From NCBI GenBank assembly GCA_019695095.1, contig JAIBAQ010000006.1:1-64000 (forward strand): a DNA stretch of 64,000 nt. The letters run 5' to 3'. Shown in pieces: positions 1 to 51,335 of the stretch. Source of the stretch: Candidatus Hydrogenedentota bacterium (GTDB taxonomy: Bacteria; Hydrogenedentota; Hydrogenedentia; Hydrogenedentales; SLHB01). Made by a program: the position numbers and the translations under genes. Position 1 is the first letter of the stretch. Every line of letters starts with the position of its first letter. Below the pieces are notes generated by a model that was given only the letters and a program-made list of their open reading frames with translations, ran no database searches and was not told the origin of the DNA.

Positions 1-60
1 TTCGCGTCGTTGCCGCGAATCTCACCCCAGGCTGGAGTCTGCCGTGCCTACGGCACTCCG
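1..60. repeat. Edge of a chained-hairpin intergenic repeat
   Basis: Bases 1-38 match the reverse complement of 48395-48433 with about one difference, so this is a second copy of the structured repeat at 48.4 kb, cut by the window edge. The next module is a hairpin (arms TGCCGT at 40-45 and ACGGCA at 50-55). In the other copy the same place holds a hairpin of different sequence (GCGCT/AGCGC), while the flanks CTGGAGT and CTC(C/T)GGAG are kept. No gene is visible in bases 1-175. Confidence 0.75.
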
Positions 61-7386: not shown

Positions 7387-7966
7387 ACGTTGAAAACTTC
7401 CCGAATTTGCCGGTCACTTGCCCCTGTCATACGGTCCGCGGTACGCGGCCCCATCCGCGAACTGTCCCGTTCCCCAACGTGCGGACTCGTATGCCGTGCC
7501 AATTGAACGAGTGACGCCGCCGTCATTGCCCGTTCCCGACGGACCGGACACCCGCTGACGCTGCGTCAACACCTTGCACATAACTCCTGGATGCACCGTT
7601 GGACTTGGGATTGTGTACCGGGACATCTTAGGAGGTCTGTTAGGCTTGGGTAGCGATGGAATAACACAATTGGCCGTAGAATTCAAGCCGACTATCCAAT
7701 CTCGGGCTGATGTAAGGGTCCTTTTGGTCCGAATTTTGACAGAAACGCGGGACCCCATTTCGCGGCTTCGGGTTGGCCGGAAGTCCGCAATTTGCACCGG
7801 CACGATTGAGCACCGACGCAAATTGCTCACGTGCAAGACGTTAAGGTTATGCCATGAGGATTTCTCGCGAACGCATTGGTTACGAAAGGGGATCAAGAGT
7901 GTTCGTGAGAAATCCGGGGAGTTGTTGCCTACCGTGTACAGGCGATCGAGCGGCGTTCGCACGTAT
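7387..7966. other. Long gene-free stretch upstream of lpxA
   Basis: About 580 bases with no convincing gene. It should contain the lpxA promoter and leader, but I found no clear -35/-10 pair. Its one recognisable element is a hairpin repeat at 7785-7880 (listed separately). Short open frames here share a peptide-like string with frames at 8.7 kb only because they translate copies of that repeat. Confidence 0.6.
7785..7880 (-). repeat. Dispersed hairpin repeat, copy A
   Basis: Minus-strand copy of a ~90 bp element found again at 8757 and 9961. Shared core, in order: AATGCGTTCGCGAGAA, CCTCATGGCATAAC, AACGTCTTGCACGTGAGC, then a terminal hairpin. In this copy the hairpin has perfect 9-base arms GCAATTTGC (7818-7826, read on minus) and GCAAATTGC (7787-7795). 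Confidence 0.8.
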
Positions 7967-8541: not shown

Positions 8542-8756
8542 GGCTTTTTTCACAGATTGAGACCCCTTTATCCCAATCGTGACCGGCTGTTTTGCTTTGA
8601 AACCGAGGGGAGCCGTCTGTGGGGGAAAAGCAGTGGTCTACGCTGACACCTGCATCGCTTGCATAGTCTGGAATTCCCGCAAACGCACCCAGACGCGTCG
8701 GGCGACCGTTGCGTACACGAGCCTTCCAGCGAAAGGGAAGGTAGTCCTACGTACGC

Positions 8757-8846
8757 AGAGTGTGTTCCCGAGAAGTCCTCATGGCATAACTCTAACGTCT
8801 TGCACGTGAGCGATTTGCGACGGCGTTCCGGCGCTGCAAATTACGG
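8757..8846 (+). repeat. Dispersed hairpin repeat, copy B
   Basis: Plus-strand copy of the same ~90 bp element as 7785 and 9961. It ends in a hairpin with arms ATTTGC and GCAAAT. It begins 13 bases beyond the stop codon of the response regulator, antisense to that gene. Confidence 0.8.
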
Positions 8847-9816: not shown

Positions 9817-9960
9817 AAGGAGACCTCGTAGTTTCCTCTACGTCCTGACTGCAATATCGGCGCACCTCGTCCGGGTATCTCTCGAACTCGCGCGAACATT
9901 GCTGACCAGCAGTCGTTTGCGAGACTTGCAGCGAACAACAAGGCCGTTCCCCGCAAACGG

Positions 9961-10053
9961 AATGCGTTCGCGAGAAGCCCTCCTGGCATAGCCTCAACGT
10001 CTTGCGCGAGAGCGATTTGCGCCGGCGCTCAGTTAGGCCGGTACGAATTACGG
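9961..10053 (+). repeat. Dispersed hairpin repeat, copy C
   Basis: Third copy of the ~90 bp element. It starts AATGCGTTCGCGAGAAG and ends in a hairpin around CCGGC/GCCGG. The hairpin sequence differs from copies A and B while pairing is kept. Confidence 0.8.
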
Positions 10054-10146: not shown

Positions 10147-10208
10147 GCGCGGCATAGCCGCAACCAAAGGGTTGGCAATTTTGGATTTTAGATTTTCGAT
10201 TTTGGATT
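10147..10208 (+). repeat. GCGGC-ATA-GCCGC hairpin motif and AT-rich oligomer
   Basis: Bases 10147-10169 are identical to 48308-48330 (a GCGGC/GCCGC hairpin with ATA loop, then AACCAAAG). They are followed by an imperfect tandem of TTTTNGAT units up to 10208. It looks like another dispersed intergenic family. Confidence 0.7.
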
Positions 10209-21450: not shown

Positions 21451-21594
21451 TTGGGATTCTGCGGTAATGTTTCAAGCTAGGTCCTTCGTCCGCCTGAGGC
21501 GGACTCAGGATGACAAGCTGGCGTAACGTAGCCTCGTTGGCTGCAGTTCGGTAGCGCCCGCGATCGGCGAACAATGCAGTTGTCGTCATGCAGG

Positions 21595-21855
21595 ACTTGT
21601 AGCGGAATGGAGACCTGACGGTCGTAAGAGTGGCTGGGTCAGGAGACCCCGCCACAGCGTGGTGAGACTTGTAGTGGAACGGAGACCTGACGGTCGTAAG
21701 AGTGGCTGGGGTCAGGAGACCCCGCCACAGCGTTGTGAGACTTGTAGTGGAATGGAGACCTGACGGTCGTAAGAGTGGCTGGGGTCAGGAGACCCCGCCA
21801 CAGCGTGGTCGTAAGAGTGGCTGGGTCAGGAGTCCCCGCCACAGCGTGGTTGCGG
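21595..21855 (+). repeat. 72-73 bp tandem repeat, about 3.6 copies, each a strong hairpin
   Basis: Units begin at 21595, 21667 and 21740; a partial unit starts at 21809. Each holds GACCTGACGGTC and then a long hairpin: outer arms GTGGC/GCCAC, inner arms GGGGTC/GACCCC with loop AGGA. Copies differ by single bases and one inserted G. There are no unique spacers. Confidence 0.93.
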
Positions 21856-45662: not shown

Positions 45663-48104
45663 TCATGGCTTCGTATCGGAATCGGGAACCGTCTTGATCA
45701 GCCACACTTCCGCGACTTGGCATCCCCGACCGGAACTGCCGCGGCCCGGCGTTTGCGTCCACGTTAATGTGAGTTTGCCGTCGGCTGTGGCGGCCTTCGG
45801 AACAGCGAATTCCACGGGCTCGATTGGCTGCTTCTTGTCGAGGAATGGATGCACCTCGATGTCCTCATCGGCCACCAGCCGCATCTGCGTGTCGAACTTG
45901 TCGCCCGCGTACACGGCCCGGACCTTGTACTCGGCATTTGGATCAAGGTTGTCGTACTGCATCACGAGTGGCGCTTCAAATCGCGTCTCCGCATCGCTGA
46001 ACCACGAATAGCGCCTGTCCGCGGGGGCGTCCTCGTATCCCAGCAGCGGGTTCGCGCGGTTTTCAGGGTCAAACTCCGTAGTCATCGCGCGCACGAGATG
46101 CGGCTGGTTGAGCGGATCGCCCAGGTCATCGTAGAAACCGCCCGGACCCGGATCTGTCCACTCCGCAATGCAGCGCAGCGCTTCGAGCCGGTCGCGCTCG
46201 GTGGGCAAGGCCCGTACCGCGGCGAACCGCGACGCAAGCCACAACCGGTTGTTCAGCGGGCGGTCAATCAGATCGAAATTCGCGCCCCGCCCGACGTCGA
46301 TGGCCTTGTATCTCGGCACGCTGAGCTGCATGTGGATGCTCTGATAGAGGGCTTCGGCCATGTCGCTTACGCGCCCGCGTAAATCCTGGCCGACGGGTTC
46401 CAACACGGCGCGATCGAGAATGCGGGCGGCCTCGTCCATCGCCAGTTGCGATCCGATTGCCTCCGCGCGCCGCAGCACGTCCATGGCTTGCGCTTCCAGC
46501 GCCGTTTCGTTAATGAGACGGCGGCGAACATACGCGTCGTAGTAAGCGCGATAGAGAATTTGTTGGAACCGCCAGTTCAGCAAGATCTGCGGCGGCACGT
46601 TGCGTTCCAGCGTCTGCACTTGTTGCAGGGTAGTATCCACGCCGGTGTTGGAAAGTAGCGGCCCTTGCCAGTTCTTTTCCAACGACATCAGTGCGTGCGC
46701 TATATCGTTTTCGAATTGCGCGCCGACAAAGTAGCGGCCATATTGCCGCAGGATATCGAATACGGCCGCATCGGGATCCCAACCCAACGCGCTCCAAAGC
46801 ATCTTGTTGCAGTCGTCGTTGACGCCTTCCGAATAGGTGAGGAAGCCGCAGGTATATGGGTTGCTCCACCGGAAGATGTCCGCATACGCCTGAGGGCGCG
46901 GATTGATGACCTCCCGGTCCTGGGTAAGCTTGTATGCCGTGTCCCAGTCCTGCACGGCGTATTGACACGAATACGTGTGCGTGATGTCGGGATAATGCCG
47001 GATGGGATACTGTTCGGGAACGGCAGCGCGAAAGTCCGGGAAGCTCATGCGATTTTGTGGCGCAAAAACAACTCCGGTAAGCCACGCGGGTTTGTCCTTC
47101 TGCAGAATGCCCAGGAACTCGTCCATCCATTCCTTGGTGAACCCTTGCGGCGACACCCACATCTGCGCCTTCGGATGCGACCGGTGCAGCACTTCCGTTT
47201 CTTTCTCCAACAGCTCCATCAGCACCTTCGGCTGCGTGTGCCCGGGGTCGCCGCCCGGAACGAAGACCGCGTCGAGCCGCGGCAACTTCTCGAATACCTC
47301 CCCCCACTCCGCCAACGCGCGTTTCACGGTTGCCGCATCCGAGTAGTCTTTCTCCATCGCGGGATACCAGAGCCACACGTCGAGGCCGTAATCGCCGGCG
47401 ATCTGCGAGGTGCGCGCGATCATATCGATCTGCGGCAGCGAAAAGTGCGGACTGTAATCGTCGTCGTCGCTTTTGGGCGGCATCATTTCGATGGCATTGG
47501 TGCCAAACACGGCCATGTCGCGGATGTACTGTTCCCACATCGGAACGGTCCACGCATCGTACGTGTTCACTTTCGGGCGATACCCGAATTGATGTCCGCG
47601 CAATGCCGTCTTGGGAGCGGTGGCAATCGAGAGCGATGCCGCCAGTTTTGCGGAGCCGCGCGACAAATCCAGCTCGCGCAAGAGCCGTCCAACACCGAAG
47701 AGTGCTCCGCGCGGATCGGCGCCTACCACCATCACGCCATTCCCCGTGGCGCGAAGCACGAACCCCTCGGGTCCGGGCGGCACAGCCTCCTTGATAGCGG
47801 CACTCATCGGCCCGGCCAACCCGGCAAGCGACGCGCTTGTCCCCACGGCGATTACGGGTTTCGAGCCTTCTGGCCAAGCGTTCTGTATCGTCCAATGAAG
47901 CGTTGTGCGCTTTTCGACTTCATCCACGAGCATCTCCGCCGCTTTCTGCTCGGGGCGCGCTGCTCCGTCCGGCAGCACGATGACCGCATTGCTCAAATCG
48001 GCCAAGGACTCGGCCTGCGCGCGACTTTCCGGCGCAAGCAGTGCCAATGCCGCGCACAAGCCCAGCGCGATCCTTTTCCCTCGTTTGCTGAAGCACGGTC
48101 GCAT
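45663..48104 (-). CDS. Exported GH67N-like glycosidase
   Basis: An 813-residue protein with a signal peptide (GLCAALALLAPESRAQA). Residues about 35-150 match the N-terminal domain of alpha-glucuronidases/hexosaminidases (NAVIVLPDGAARPEQKAAEM..., GNGVMVVGADPRGALFGVGRLL). A TIM barrel follows (about 165-480: FGTNAIEMMPPKSDDD, YGLDVWLWYPAMEKDY, FVPGGDPGHTQP). A helical C-terminal part and a beta-sandwich end (NAEYKVRAVYAGDKFD) complete it. It probably acts on uronate- or hexosamine-containing side chains. Upstream of, and 40 bases from, the six-hairpin gene; likely cotranscribed. Confidence 0.78.
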   Translation of the reverse strand: MRPCFSKRGKRIALGLCAALALLAPESRAQAESLADLSNAVIVLPDGAARPEQKAAEMLVDEVEKRTTLHWTIQNAWPEGSKPVIAVGTSASLAGLAGPMSAAIKEAVPPGPEGFVLRATGNGVMVVGADPRGALFGVGRLLRELDLSRGSAKLAASLSIATAPKTALRGHQFGYRPKVNTYDAWTVPMWEQYIRDMAVFGTNAIEMMPPKSDDDDYSPHFSLPQIDMIARTSQIAGDYGLDVWLWYPAMEKDYSDAATVKRALAEWGEVFEKLPRLDAVFVPGGDPGHTQPKVLMELLEKETEVLHRSHPKAQMWVSPQGFTKEWMDEFLGILQKDKPAWLTGVVFAPQNRMSFPDFRAAVPEQYPIRHYPDITHTYSCQYAVQDWDTAYKLTQDREVINPRPQAYADIFRWSNPYTCGFLTYSEGVNDDCNKMLWSALGWDPDAAVFDILRQYGRYFVGAQFENDIAHALMSLEKNWQGPLLSNTGVDTTLQQVQTLERNVPPQILLNWRFQQILYRAYYDAYVRRRLINETALEAQAMDVLRRAEAIGSQLAMDEAARILDRAVLEPVGQDLRGRVSDMAEALYQSIHMQLSVPRYKAIDVGRGANFDLIDRPLNNRLWLASRFAAVRALPTERDRLEALRCIAEWTDPGPGGFYDDLGDPLNQPHLVRAMTTEFDPENRANPLLGYEDAPADRRYSWFSDAETRFEAPLVMQYDNLDPNAEYKVRAVYAGDKFDTQMRLVADEDIEVHPFLDKKQPIEPVEFAVPKAATADGKLTLTWTQTPGRGSSGRGCQVAEVWLIKTVPDSDTKP

Positions 48105-48307: not shown

Positions 48308-48330
48308 GCGCGGCATAGCCGCAACCAAAG
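48308..48330 (+). repeat. GCGGC-ATA-GCCGC hairpin motif, second copy
   Basis: 23 bases identical to 10147-10169, including the 5 bp hairpin with ATA loop and the AACCAAAG tail. Confidence 0.85.
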
Positions 48331-48360
48331 TGACTCAACCACCGATAAACTCCAACGATT

Positions 48361-48530
48361 TGACCCGATACTCCAGAGCGCTGCAAGCGCGAAATACTCC
48401 AGCCTGGGGTGAGATTCGCGTCAACGACGCGAATCGAAACCCCAGGTACCCGCCCCGCCCAACGAGCGCCCTGTCAGGGCGCAAGCAACACGCCGCGGTC
48501 ATCGACCGCGTCGCTACCGGCGCCGCGTTT
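48361..48530. repeat. Chained-hairpin repeat element
   Basis: Four perfect hairpins in a row: GCGCT/AGCGC (48378-48390); a nested one with outer arms CCTGGGGT (48403-48410) and ACCCCAGG (48439-48446) and inner arms ATTCGCGTC (48414-48422) and GACGCGAAT (48426-48434); GCGCCCTG/CAGGGCGC (48466-48482); CGCGGTC/GACCGCG (48494-48510). Part of it recurs inverted at bases 1-60. Confidence 0.9.
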
Positions 48531-48722: not shown

Positions 48723-51335
48723 ATGGTCCGTTCGGCATCTTTCGCGGCGGTTGTTATGGGGTTGGTCTTGAACATGGCGGCGCATGCAGCCAGCGTGACG
48801 AACCTTCGGTGCGAATTCCTTCAAGACCCGCTGGGGCTCGACACGAAACAGCCGCGGTTAAGCTGGGTAATCGACAGCAAGGCGTCCGGCGCGGCGCAGT
48901 CGGCCTATCGCGTTCTGGTTGCCAGCGACCCCCAGAGACTGCGCGCGGACTCTGGCGACAGGTGGGATTCGGGCAAGGTGGCCAGCGACCAGAGTCAGTT
49001 GGTCGCGTATGCGGGGAAGCCGTTGCAGGCCCGGGATGTCTGCTGGTGGAAAGTGAAGATCTGGGATCAGGATGGCCGCGAATCGGCCTGGAGCAAGCCC
49101 GCGCGCTGGACCATGGGTCCGGATTGGGCGCAAGAGGCCAAGTGGATTGGCTGCGATTGGATGCGCGATGGCGGACCGCTGCCGTGGCTGCGCAAGACAT
49201 TCGACCTGCCGTCGAAGCCTGCGCGCGCGGAAATCAGCGTGTGCGCCCTGGGTTACTTCGAACTCTATGTAAACGGGAAGAAGGTCAGCGATGACGTGTT
49301 GTGTCCGGCAACGTCGGACTACTCAAAGCGCGGGCTATACCTCACGTATGACGTTGCCCGCATGCTCAAGCCGGGGAAGAACTGCCTGGGGCTGTGGCTG
49401 GGCCGGGGTTGGGCCAAACTGATTCTGGATAAGGTGGGACCGGATGGTCCCATGGTGCGCGCGCAGTTGGACTTGGCGTTCGCTTCCGGCGAGACGGCCC
49501 GGGTTGTCACAGACGAGTCGTGGAAGGTGCACAAGAGTTGTATCACGCCCATCGACACGCTTCAGAGCAACCATTATGGCGGCGAAGGCTACGACGCGCG
49601 TTTGGAGATGGATGACTGGAATCAGACGGGCCTAGACGATAGTCAGTGGGGTGCTGCTACGGTGTTCGCGCCGACGACCCCGGTGATTGCGGCGCAGCCC
49701 GTCGAACCCAACCGAATCATTGGGAAGATTAAGCCGGTGTCTATCGTGCCGCACGGCACGGGGTATCTCGTCGACATGGGCCGGAACTACACGGGTTGGT
49801 TCAAGATCAAGTTCCCTGGCCTCAAAGAAGGACAGGAAGTCCACATGCAGTTTGCCGACAAGCGGTTTCCCGACGGCAAATTCCAGACCTATAGCCAGCG
49901 CGACACCTACATCGGGCGCGCGGAAGGCAACCGCACATTCTGCAACCGCTTCAATTACCACGCGTTTCGGTATGCAATCATTGACGGCGTCGCGAGTGCG
50001 CCAAAGCTTACGGATATCGTCGGACTGCCCATCAGCACGGATTACGAAAGGACCGCGGATTTCGAATGCTCCAATCCACTGCTCAACACCATCTACGACA
50101 CGACGGTTTGGACGTACCGCTGCCTGAGCTTGGGCGGCTACACCGTTGACTGTCCGCATCGCGAGCGGCTTGGGTATGGCGGCGATTCGGGCACGTCCAT
50201 GGAAATGGGGATGACCAATTTCGCGCTGGCGCCGTTCTACAACAAGTGGGCGGCCGATTGGCGCGATTCGCAGAATGAAGCAGGCGATGTGCCCTACACG
50301 GCGCCCCATGCGCAGGACGCGGGCGGCGGCCCGGTGTGGAGCGGCTTCTGCGTCACGATGCCGTGGCAGGTCTATGTTCAGTACGGCGACCGCCGTATCC
50401 TGGAGCAATCGTATCCGACCATGCAGAAGTGGCTTGCCTTCATCGACACGAAGTTCAAGGACGGAATCCTGCAGCCTTATGTTGGCATTGGTTGCAGCAT
50501 GCCGGAGTGGAACTTCCTGGGCGACTGGGTGCCGCCTGGCCGCAAGCAAGGCAGCGAAGGCCGCGTGGACGAGCGATCCACACTCTTCTTCAACAACTGC
50601 TATCTGGTTCACTGCCTGCAAATCGCATCCAAGGTAGCCGCGCTGATGAATGATGACGCCAATGCCCGTGCCTACAACGAGAAGGCAACGGCGCTGGCCG
50701 CGCGCATCCACGAACAGTTCCTGAATCCGGGCGAGGCCACCTATGTCAACAGGGAACAGCCCTATCTCGCGATGCCGCTGCTGTTCAACATCACGCCGGA
50801 ACCTCTGCGCGCTCAGGTGTTGTCGAACCTCGCGCAGGATATTCTCGTCACGCACAAGGGGCATCTGAATTCCGGTATGCACGGCACGTATTACATGACG
50901 AAGTATCTCATGCAAAACGGCCGCAACGATCTCGTGTACTCCATGGTGTCACAAGACACGTACCCCAGTTGGGGCTTCATGCTCAAGAACGGCGCCACGA
51001 CGATCTGGGAAGAATGGGACGGCGACAATTCGCACATTCACAACACGCTCATCTCGATTGGCATGTGGTTTATTCAGGGGCTTGGCGGCATACGCTGGGA
51101 CGAAAACGAACCCGGCTACAAGAACATCATTATCAATCCCGGTGTTGTGGACGGGCTTGACTATGTGAAGAGCAGTCAACGATCCCCGTACGGACAGATC
51201 GTCAGCAATTGGGCCAGAAAGGGCGATCAAATCGAATTCGACATCACCGTGCCGGCGAACAGCCGTGCCACAATCGTGCTGCCCAACAGCGAGACGATCA
51301 AAGTGGGCGCGGGCAAGCACACGTTCCGGAGGTAA
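48723..51335 (+). CDS. Exported alpha-L-rhamnosidase (GH78), second copy
   Basis: An 870-residue GH78 enzyme, paralogous to the one at 29.3 kb but clearly divergent. Signal peptide FAAVVMGLVLNMAAHA; N-terminal fibronectin-like part (LRCEFLQDPLGLDTKQPRLSW); (alpha/alpha)6 barrel about 430-770. Catalytic acids are retained in DCPHRERLGYGGD and GATTIWEEWDGD. ATG 48723 with AAGGGGG just upstream is preferred; the frame is open to 48663. Two secreted rhamnosidases suggest a rhamnose-rich target with different linkages. Confidence 0.95.
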   Translation: MVRSASFAAVVMGLVLNMAAHAASVTNLRCEFLQDPLGLDTKQPRLSWVIDSKASGAAQSAYRVLVASDPQRLRADSGDRWDSGKVASDQSQLVAYAGKPLQARDVCWWKVKIWDQDGRESAWSKPARWTMGPDWAQEAKWIGCDWMRDGGPLPWLRKTFDLPSKPARAEISVCALGYFELYVNGKKVSDDVLCPATSDYSKRGLYLTYDVARMLKPGKNCLGLWLGRGWAKLILDKVGPDGPMVRAQLDLAFASGETARVVTDESWKVHKSCITPIDTLQSNHYGGEGYDARLEMDDWNQTGLDDSQWGAATVFAPTTPVIAAQPVEPNRIIGKIKPVSIVPHGTGYLVDMGRNYTGWFKIKFPGLKEGQEVHMQFADKRFPDGKFQTYSQRDTYIGRAEGNRTFCNRFNYHAFRYAIIDGVASAPKLTDIVGLPISTDYERTADFECSNPLLNTIYDTTVWTYRCLSLGGYTVDCPHRERLGYGGDSGTSMEMGMTNFALAPFYNKWAADWRDSQNEAGDVPYTAPHAQDAGGGPVWSGFCVTMPWQVYVQYGDRRILEQSYPTMQKWLAFIDTKFKDGILQPYVGIGCSMPEWNFLGDWVPPGRKQGSEGRVDERSTLFFNNCYLVHCLQIASKVAALMNDDANARAYNEKATALAARIHEQFLNPGEATYVNREQPYLAMPLLFNITPEPLRAQVLSNLAQDILVTHKGHLNSGMHGTYYMTKYLMQNGRNDLVYSMVSQDTYPSWGFMLKNGATTIWEEWDGDNSHIHNTLISIGMWFIQGLGGIRWDENEPGYKNIIINPGVVDGLDYVKSSQRSPYGQIVSNWARKGDQIEFDITVPANSRATIVLPNSETIKVGAGKHTFRR

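Follow-up and report, generated by a model that had tools for sequence, protein, structure and literature searches.

The array of hairpins at positions 48361-48530 is very probably a copy of a REP/REPIN-like repeat that is non-autonomous and has as its cognate enzyme a subclass-1.2 Y1 HUH transposase carrying the motif Y---Q--HH. Contig C6 provides the window, i.e., the whole stretch of 64,000 nucleotides analyzed here (its bases 1-64000), and is part of a draft genome of 6.77 Mb in 405 contigs.

The present findings bear on the origin of REP sequences from transposons. When Y1 transposases were surveyed in 2018, subclass 1.2 was listed without repeats and without an assigned role. Our analysis revealed cognate repeats at nearly every subclass-1.2 locus examined, arranged around the gene, as inverted dimers or as solo elements. 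These arrangements sometimes differ inside one genus, so that the step from an insertion sequence to a dispersed repeat becomes comparable. Furthermore, the analysis yields enzyme-substrate pairs that are open to testing, two of them in named Bacteroidota.

Architecture and covariation of the hairpin element

The element has the order short hairpin - long hairpin - short hairpin (S-L-S), and its core runs from the first short hairpin through a foot, the long hairpin and a spacer to the second short hairpin. It lies between divergent genes (45663-48104 on the minus strand and about 48723-51335 on the plus strand). The following features were delineated:

48308..48376, plus strand: left flank common to type-A copies, starting with GCGCGGCATAGCCGCAACCAAAG (repeat search; BLAST matches reach the query start at 48330)
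48369..48498, plus strand: whole S-L-S element, matching positions 1-131 of the R1 covariance model (E 2.7e-36, this copy being a member of the alignment behind that model) and the R2 model (E 1.4e-16)
48378..48390, plus strand: first short hairpin H1, type A, GCGCT-GCA-AGCGC (perfect fold; two of five pairs changed on both sides between types A and B)
48397-48398, plus strand: CT dinucleotide, a candidate cleavage site
48399..48402, plus strand: foot CCAG, adjoining the long hairpin on its 5' side (REPs have GTAG at the equivalent place)
48403..48446, plus strand: long hairpin L (H2), CCTGGGGT...ACCCCAGG, with the 10-bp inner stem ATTCGCGTC/GACGCGAAT (fold; 48 copies with exact arms in the genome)
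48466..48482, plus strand: second short hairpin H3, GCGCCCT-GTC-AGGGCGC (fold; in seven copies a C-G pair has become T-A)
48494..48510, plus strand: fourth hairpin, CGCGGTC-ATC-GACCGCG (fold; in the right flanks of some copies only)
1..56, minus strand: second copy, in which the long hairpin is incomplete (1-31) and H1 is of type B, GTGCC-TAC-GGCAC (44-56) (read from the sequence; the window begins at base 1 of contig C6)

H3 is the hairpin that faces the gene in transposase units. The fourth hairpin lies outside the conserved element and belongs to one of several types of right-hand flank. On the left side, GCGCGGCATAGCCGCAACCAAAG is an exact 23-nt repeat that occurs at 10147-10169 and 48308-48330.

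In comparison with dinucleotide shuffles, folding of the stretch gave z = -5.1 as RNA and -6.0 as DNA, and none of 200 shuffles equalled it. The four perfect hairpins reported by the first-pass annotation were borne out by the fold check, all of them lying within 133 bases (48378-48510). The same annotation saw the outer hairpin kept in the copy at 1-60, but the start of the contig cuts the long hairpin there and leaves a single outer arm visible, which is too little to demonstrate its conservation.

Two forms of H1, A (GCGCT-GCA-AGCGC) and B (GTGCC-GTA-GGCAC), each account for about half of the copies. The sequences AGCGCTGCAAGCGCGAAATACTCCAG and AGTGCCGTAGGCACGGCAGACTCCAG align over 26 nt without gaps, with both members of two pairs replaced (C-G by T-A and T-A by C-G). 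As the two types thus form a collinear 26-nt module, we discarded the idea that hairpin cassettes had been exchanged; what had been described as stem swapping is a matter of two compensatory base-pair changes instead of module exchange. The pairing TGCCGT/ACGGCA, also pointed out at first, represents another register of the type-B form. The forms of H1 and H3 were combined as A-a in 10 copies, A-b in 6, A-c in 5, B-a in 1, B-b in 20 and B-c in 2. This variety of combinations indicates that the copies are mosaic or that the changes recurred.

Within the genome, double changes were present at 5 of the 30 pairs, a number reached by 14 of 500 shuffles. This covariation is real but modest, and one event may account for the difference between types A and B. 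Across genomes, double changes were found at 28 of 30 pairs, with a covariation score of 0.353 vs. 0.126 in shuffles; for 116 elements taken from transposase loci, 18 of 20 pairs were double-changed and the score was 0.475, compared with 0.163 in shuffles and at most 0.086 with slid partners (the cross-genome alignments were fitted to the model, which favors structure, and the alignment and the slid controls have the same fit). The strong covariation across genomes confirms that pairing is kept despite sequence change, as the first-pass annotation had proposed, and it runs counter to the outcome that the annotation had considered damaging to its reading, namely stem differences without significant covariation.

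The repeat family and the transposase genes of the genome

The family is not restricted to the two copies within the window, a possibility raised at first: at least 56 copies were counted in the genome with the R1 covariance model, nearly all of full model length. This model was built from 49 copies, and 56 is a lower bound, as 56 candidates were scored. The arms CCTGGGGT...ACCCCAGG occur at 48 places in the genome and the reversed control pattern at none, and a BLAST search of the genome with the stretch gave 45 matches. None of the 48 copies overlapped frames with coding composition, whereas 516 of 940 positions drawn at random from those loci did. Most copies in this genome are single. The genes around the 48 copies were convergent in 12 cases, tandem in 12 and divergent in 9 (15 were not resolved), and the lack of a preferred gene orientation argues against a dedicated terminator or leader. 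At one locus (L040, G000:C225:1-2400), three copies of the element are intermixed with a CCTTGGGT hairpin and further repeats in the space of 1.1 kb; a transposase gene was looked for at this locus and none was found.

Three Y1_Tnp (PF01797) genes are present in the genome, on contigs C22, C43 and C193. The TnpA gene at C22:18404-18850 lies between inverted copies of the window family, with H3 toward the gene on both sides. It contains an in-frame TGA, and Y replaces the first HUH histidine. Judging from its sequence, this gene is apparently dead, which suggests that the window family may be a fossil, inactive today and probably not mobile any more. With regard to the first-pass suggestion of a non-autonomous mobile hairpin element, the copy number and the covariation agree with non-autonomous multicopy hairpins, whereas the movement is something that we infer.

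The C43 gene is intact and encodes 150 aa; a sister variant of the element (CCTAGGG) adjoins it on one side. We do not claim the C43 protein as the current enzyme of the window family, the elements neighboring it being of the CCTAGGG variant. The sister family, AGCCTAGGGC...GCCCTAGG, is a 66-68-nt hairpin found at 11 places in the genome. It belongs with the intact C43 TnpA (L035, G000:C43) and occurs also on C17, C19, C86, C92, C103, C126, C179 and C359, and its inner stems vary widely with pairing maintained. The C193 TnpA belongs to another subclass and is not accompanied by such a repeat.

According to sequence comparison, the closest solved chain to the C43 protein is ISDra2 TnpA (2xm3, E 3e-4). 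The transposase scored above the cut-offs for PF01797 and for NF033573, the NCBIfam IS200/IS605 model. With the NCBIfam REP-transposase model, which has a cut-off of 80, the best score was 25.5 bits for a relative in genome G053, and the C43 protein was unreported. The motifs DH[IV]H, WQ and Y---Q--HH, together with a length of about 150 aa, are those of subclass 1.2, for which about 148 aa is given, and on these motifs the protein was assigned to subclass 1.2 of Quentin et al. (2018). In 16 aligned proteins, the residues W, Q, Y, Q, H and H and both HUH histidines are invariant. In that survey (Quentin et al., 2018, Table 1, PMC6006769), TnpA_Y1 proteins of this subclass come mostly from Cyanobacteria and Bacteroidetes and are scored "no" for REP, and typical terminal hairpins are said to be lacking as a rule. 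We had first assumed a RAYT identity, which was rejected because neither the Y motif nor the NCBIfam score fits. The Y motif also spoke against class 3 of the survey, which has atypical hairpins and is found in Planctomycetes, and this class was rejected.

Association of the elements with subclass-1.2 genes

Among 46 subclass-1.2 loci of the host phylum, which were the best-scoring matches, elements were present on both sides of the gene at 37 and on at least one side at 45. Of the 37 two-sided loci, 36 had the elements inverted with H3 inward, and one had both elements on the minus strand. Elements on one side were found at eight loci, some of them at contig ends, and the model detected none at a single locus (L094). 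Some of the tested loci had contributed part of the elements behind the R2 model; a model-free test of the flanks, which does not have this bias, revealed inverted repeats at most subclass-1.2 loci, including L094, missed by the model. TnpA loci of other subclasses had no elements (0 of 4). The gap between the gene and the model end at subclass-1.2 loci had a median of 4 bp.

The left and right elements of one gene were also matched to each other. Their median similarity was 0.64, compared with 0.46 for elements of different genes in the same genome and 0.43 for elements of other genomes, and for 26 of the 37 genes the true partner came out first among 37 candidates, where chance predicts one. 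Element and protein distances were correlated (Spearman 0.27; none of 2000 permutations as high), a correlation that could be partly explained by common host ancestry. In another genome (G047), many fragments on several contigs correspond to no more than the final 34-45 transposase residues, and several of them have stops. These are 3' remnants of the gene, possibly carried along with the downstream element.

Gene and elements also co-occur. Among 68 genomes of the host phylum, 43 had a subclass-1.2 gene (at 77 bits or more), and all 43 had elements; of the 25 genomes without the gene, 10 had elements and 15 did not, and consequently all 15 element-free genomes also lacked the gene. The Fisher p-value was 7e-9 by genome and 1.6e-5 by genus (both in 28 genera, gene only in 0, elements only in 7, neither in 9), and both values are optimistic due to the relatedness of the genomes. 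In the 10 genomes with elements and no detected gene, either the drafts are incomplete or the gene was lost. Three genomes (G019, G035, and G056) have 29-48 elements and no strong subclass-1.2 gene detected, the gene being lost or missing from the draft. Within genus g24, G036 alone has the gene and G036 alone has elements. An empty site was sought in the sister genomes of G036; the right flank was found (71-77% identity), and no clean left junction. A corresponding search with G058 ended in an unrelated repeat. Among the listed elements of G016 and G022 are nine inverted dimers (220-222 bp, H3 inward), which correspond to the unit minus the gene.

These data bear on several other explanations of the repeat. 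Former REPs might have been kept by the host for a cellular role, such as gyrase or IHF binding or a function at mRNA 3' ends, with only a historical link to the transposase. The fact that E. coli REPs are bound by host proteins (PMC2817692) and the persistence of at least 56 copies though the gene flanked by the window family is apparently dead are in line with such exaptation. We nevertheless consider it unlikely, since the copies have no bias in gene context and elements adjoin the transposase: all five elements of G026 adjoin its two genes, and two of the four in G058 adjoin the gene. For single copies, exaptation and a REP/REPIN-like nature are compatible.

It is very improbable that the copies are transcribed and that the folded RNA is under selection as a small RNA, an attenuator or a terminator, the structured-RNA alternative named by the first-pass annotation. 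The fold is stable, and the covariation, with some G-U pairs among the elements, would fit RNA as well as DNA. However, no Rfam match at gathering thresholds was found in the window, convergent, tandem and divergent neighbors show no preference, inverted pairs surround the transposase genes, and the presence of elements tracks the transposase across genomes. Mere insertion of transposase genes into pre-existing repeats has even less to recommend it. Some insertion sequences are known to insert in REPs (PMC8450116, PMC1525189), but such an event would split one copy, whereas whole, inverted and mutually matched copies flank the gene at a few base pairs, and the element sequence follows the protein. 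Finally, a MITE mobilized by a DDE transposase would likewise be short, multicopy and intergenic, but is hardly credible, as the association is with a Y1 HUH gene and the element has several separate hairpins and a conserved foot rather than a single terminal inverted repeat.

Linkage of this kind between gene and elements was also seen in two Bacteroidota. In Persicobacter sp. JZB09, a plasmid-borne subclass-1.2 gene (YIQNQKFHH) is framed by two S-L-S elements in inverted orientation (E 3.2e-12 and 1.8e-13), and the element was found at eight places in the plasmid record. In Emticicia aquatilis, the gene (YIQNQKEHH) is followed on its 3' side by arrays of long and short hairpins, and the genome contains 15 elements. 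In Bernardetia, the gene is present (YILNQPEHH) and no element was detected, which indicates that the link between gene and element is not universal. The viral contigs searched contained no subclass-1.2 gene.

Relation to known systems and proposed mechanism

The elements resemble the REPtrons of class-2 TnpA_REP/RAYT proteins (Nunvar, 2010, PMC2817692; Quentin et al., 2018, PMC6006769; PMC8266576) in having many intergenic hairpins, a Y1 HUH gene between inverted copies, a repeat variant of its own for each gene and mosaic arrays. The foot is a partial likeness, as REPtrons have the tetranucleotide GT[AG]G there and the elements mostly a (G)YAG, with CCAG in the window family. The differences lie in the Y motif (Y---NP in REPtrons, Y---Q--HH here), in the REP-transposase model, whose cut-off is not reached here, and in the repeat itself, which in REPtrons is one hairpin of 20-40 nt and here a three-hairpin unit of about 110-130 nt. 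Due to the Y motif and the REP-transposase score, we do not file the system as a class-2 REPtron, although its working is REPtron-like.

The protein agrees with subclass 1.2 (Quentin et al., 2018) in its motifs and length. That subclass was described without REPs, whereas nearly all loci examined here have an element on at least one side, in a further phylum. The flanking elements contradict the description of the subclass, but not the assignment of the protein family. With IS200/IS605 elements (IS608, ISDra2), the system shares a Y1 HUH transposase, an NCBIfam match above the cut-off and hairpins at the ends. However, IS200/IS605 elements are without terminal inverted repeats, whereas the ends here are inverted copies of each other in the model-based and model-free tests, are also dispersed as solo repeats and belong to gene copies that are diverse within one genome. 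Because of the inverted ends, we did not file the system under the standard IS200/IS605 elements.

The discrete inverted dimers of G016 and G022 are a partial likeness to REPINs (Bertels and Rainey, 2011; PMC3116915); in contrast, the genome of the window has mostly single copies, the unit is longer and the transposase is of another subclass. In TIRYTs/TIRtrons (PMC3733652), a tyrosine transposase also lies between long inverted repeats that may recur in the genome and are in some cases self-complementary, but the 26 cases described belong to subclasses 2.1, 2.2 and 2.5 and not to 1.2 (Quentin et al., 2018). No earlier report of repeats linked to subclass 1.2 was found in the open-access papers searched. 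On balance, we are inclined to regard subclass-1.2 TnpA_Y1 as a distinct lineage of single-strand transposition with inverted three-hairpin ends, placed between insertion sequences and REPtrons, occurring as an autonomous unit, a gene-less inverted dimer and solo elements, and present in at least two phyla.

Of 112 elements next to transposase genes, 102 read YAG directly before the long hairpin on its 5' side, with GTAG as the commonest form (39). The foot of the window family is CCAG and not GTAG. REPs have GTAG at their foot, and according to a simple model for TnpA_REP, the final two bases of this foot pair with CT at the site of cleavage (PMC8266576). By analogy, the YAG foot may act as a guide for the cleavage site in the elements described here. 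In the putative autonomous unit, S-L-S elements in inverted orientation enclose the TnpA gene, and their inner short hairpins adjoin it. By analogy with IS200/IS605 and TnpA_REP systems, TnpA probably binds the folded long hairpin on single-stranded DNA, e.g., the lagging-strand template, cleaves at a site presumably set by the foot, and carries elements, singly or as inverted pairs, to other intergenic positions.

Several other repeats were observed in the course of the analysis. At positions 21564-21850 of the window, a 73-nt unit occurs three times in tandem, together with a related repeat of 44 nt with GGGTCAGGAGACCCCGCCACAGCGT, and a family of direct or inverted repeats of 70-110 nt, 75-87% alike, is present at 7785-7877, 8718-8828 and 9920-10053. 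An unrelated repeat of ~183 bp (L155:1448-1630), noted for G058, G059 (dozens of copies) and G067 (fewer), matches on both strands and looks like a palindromic MITE.
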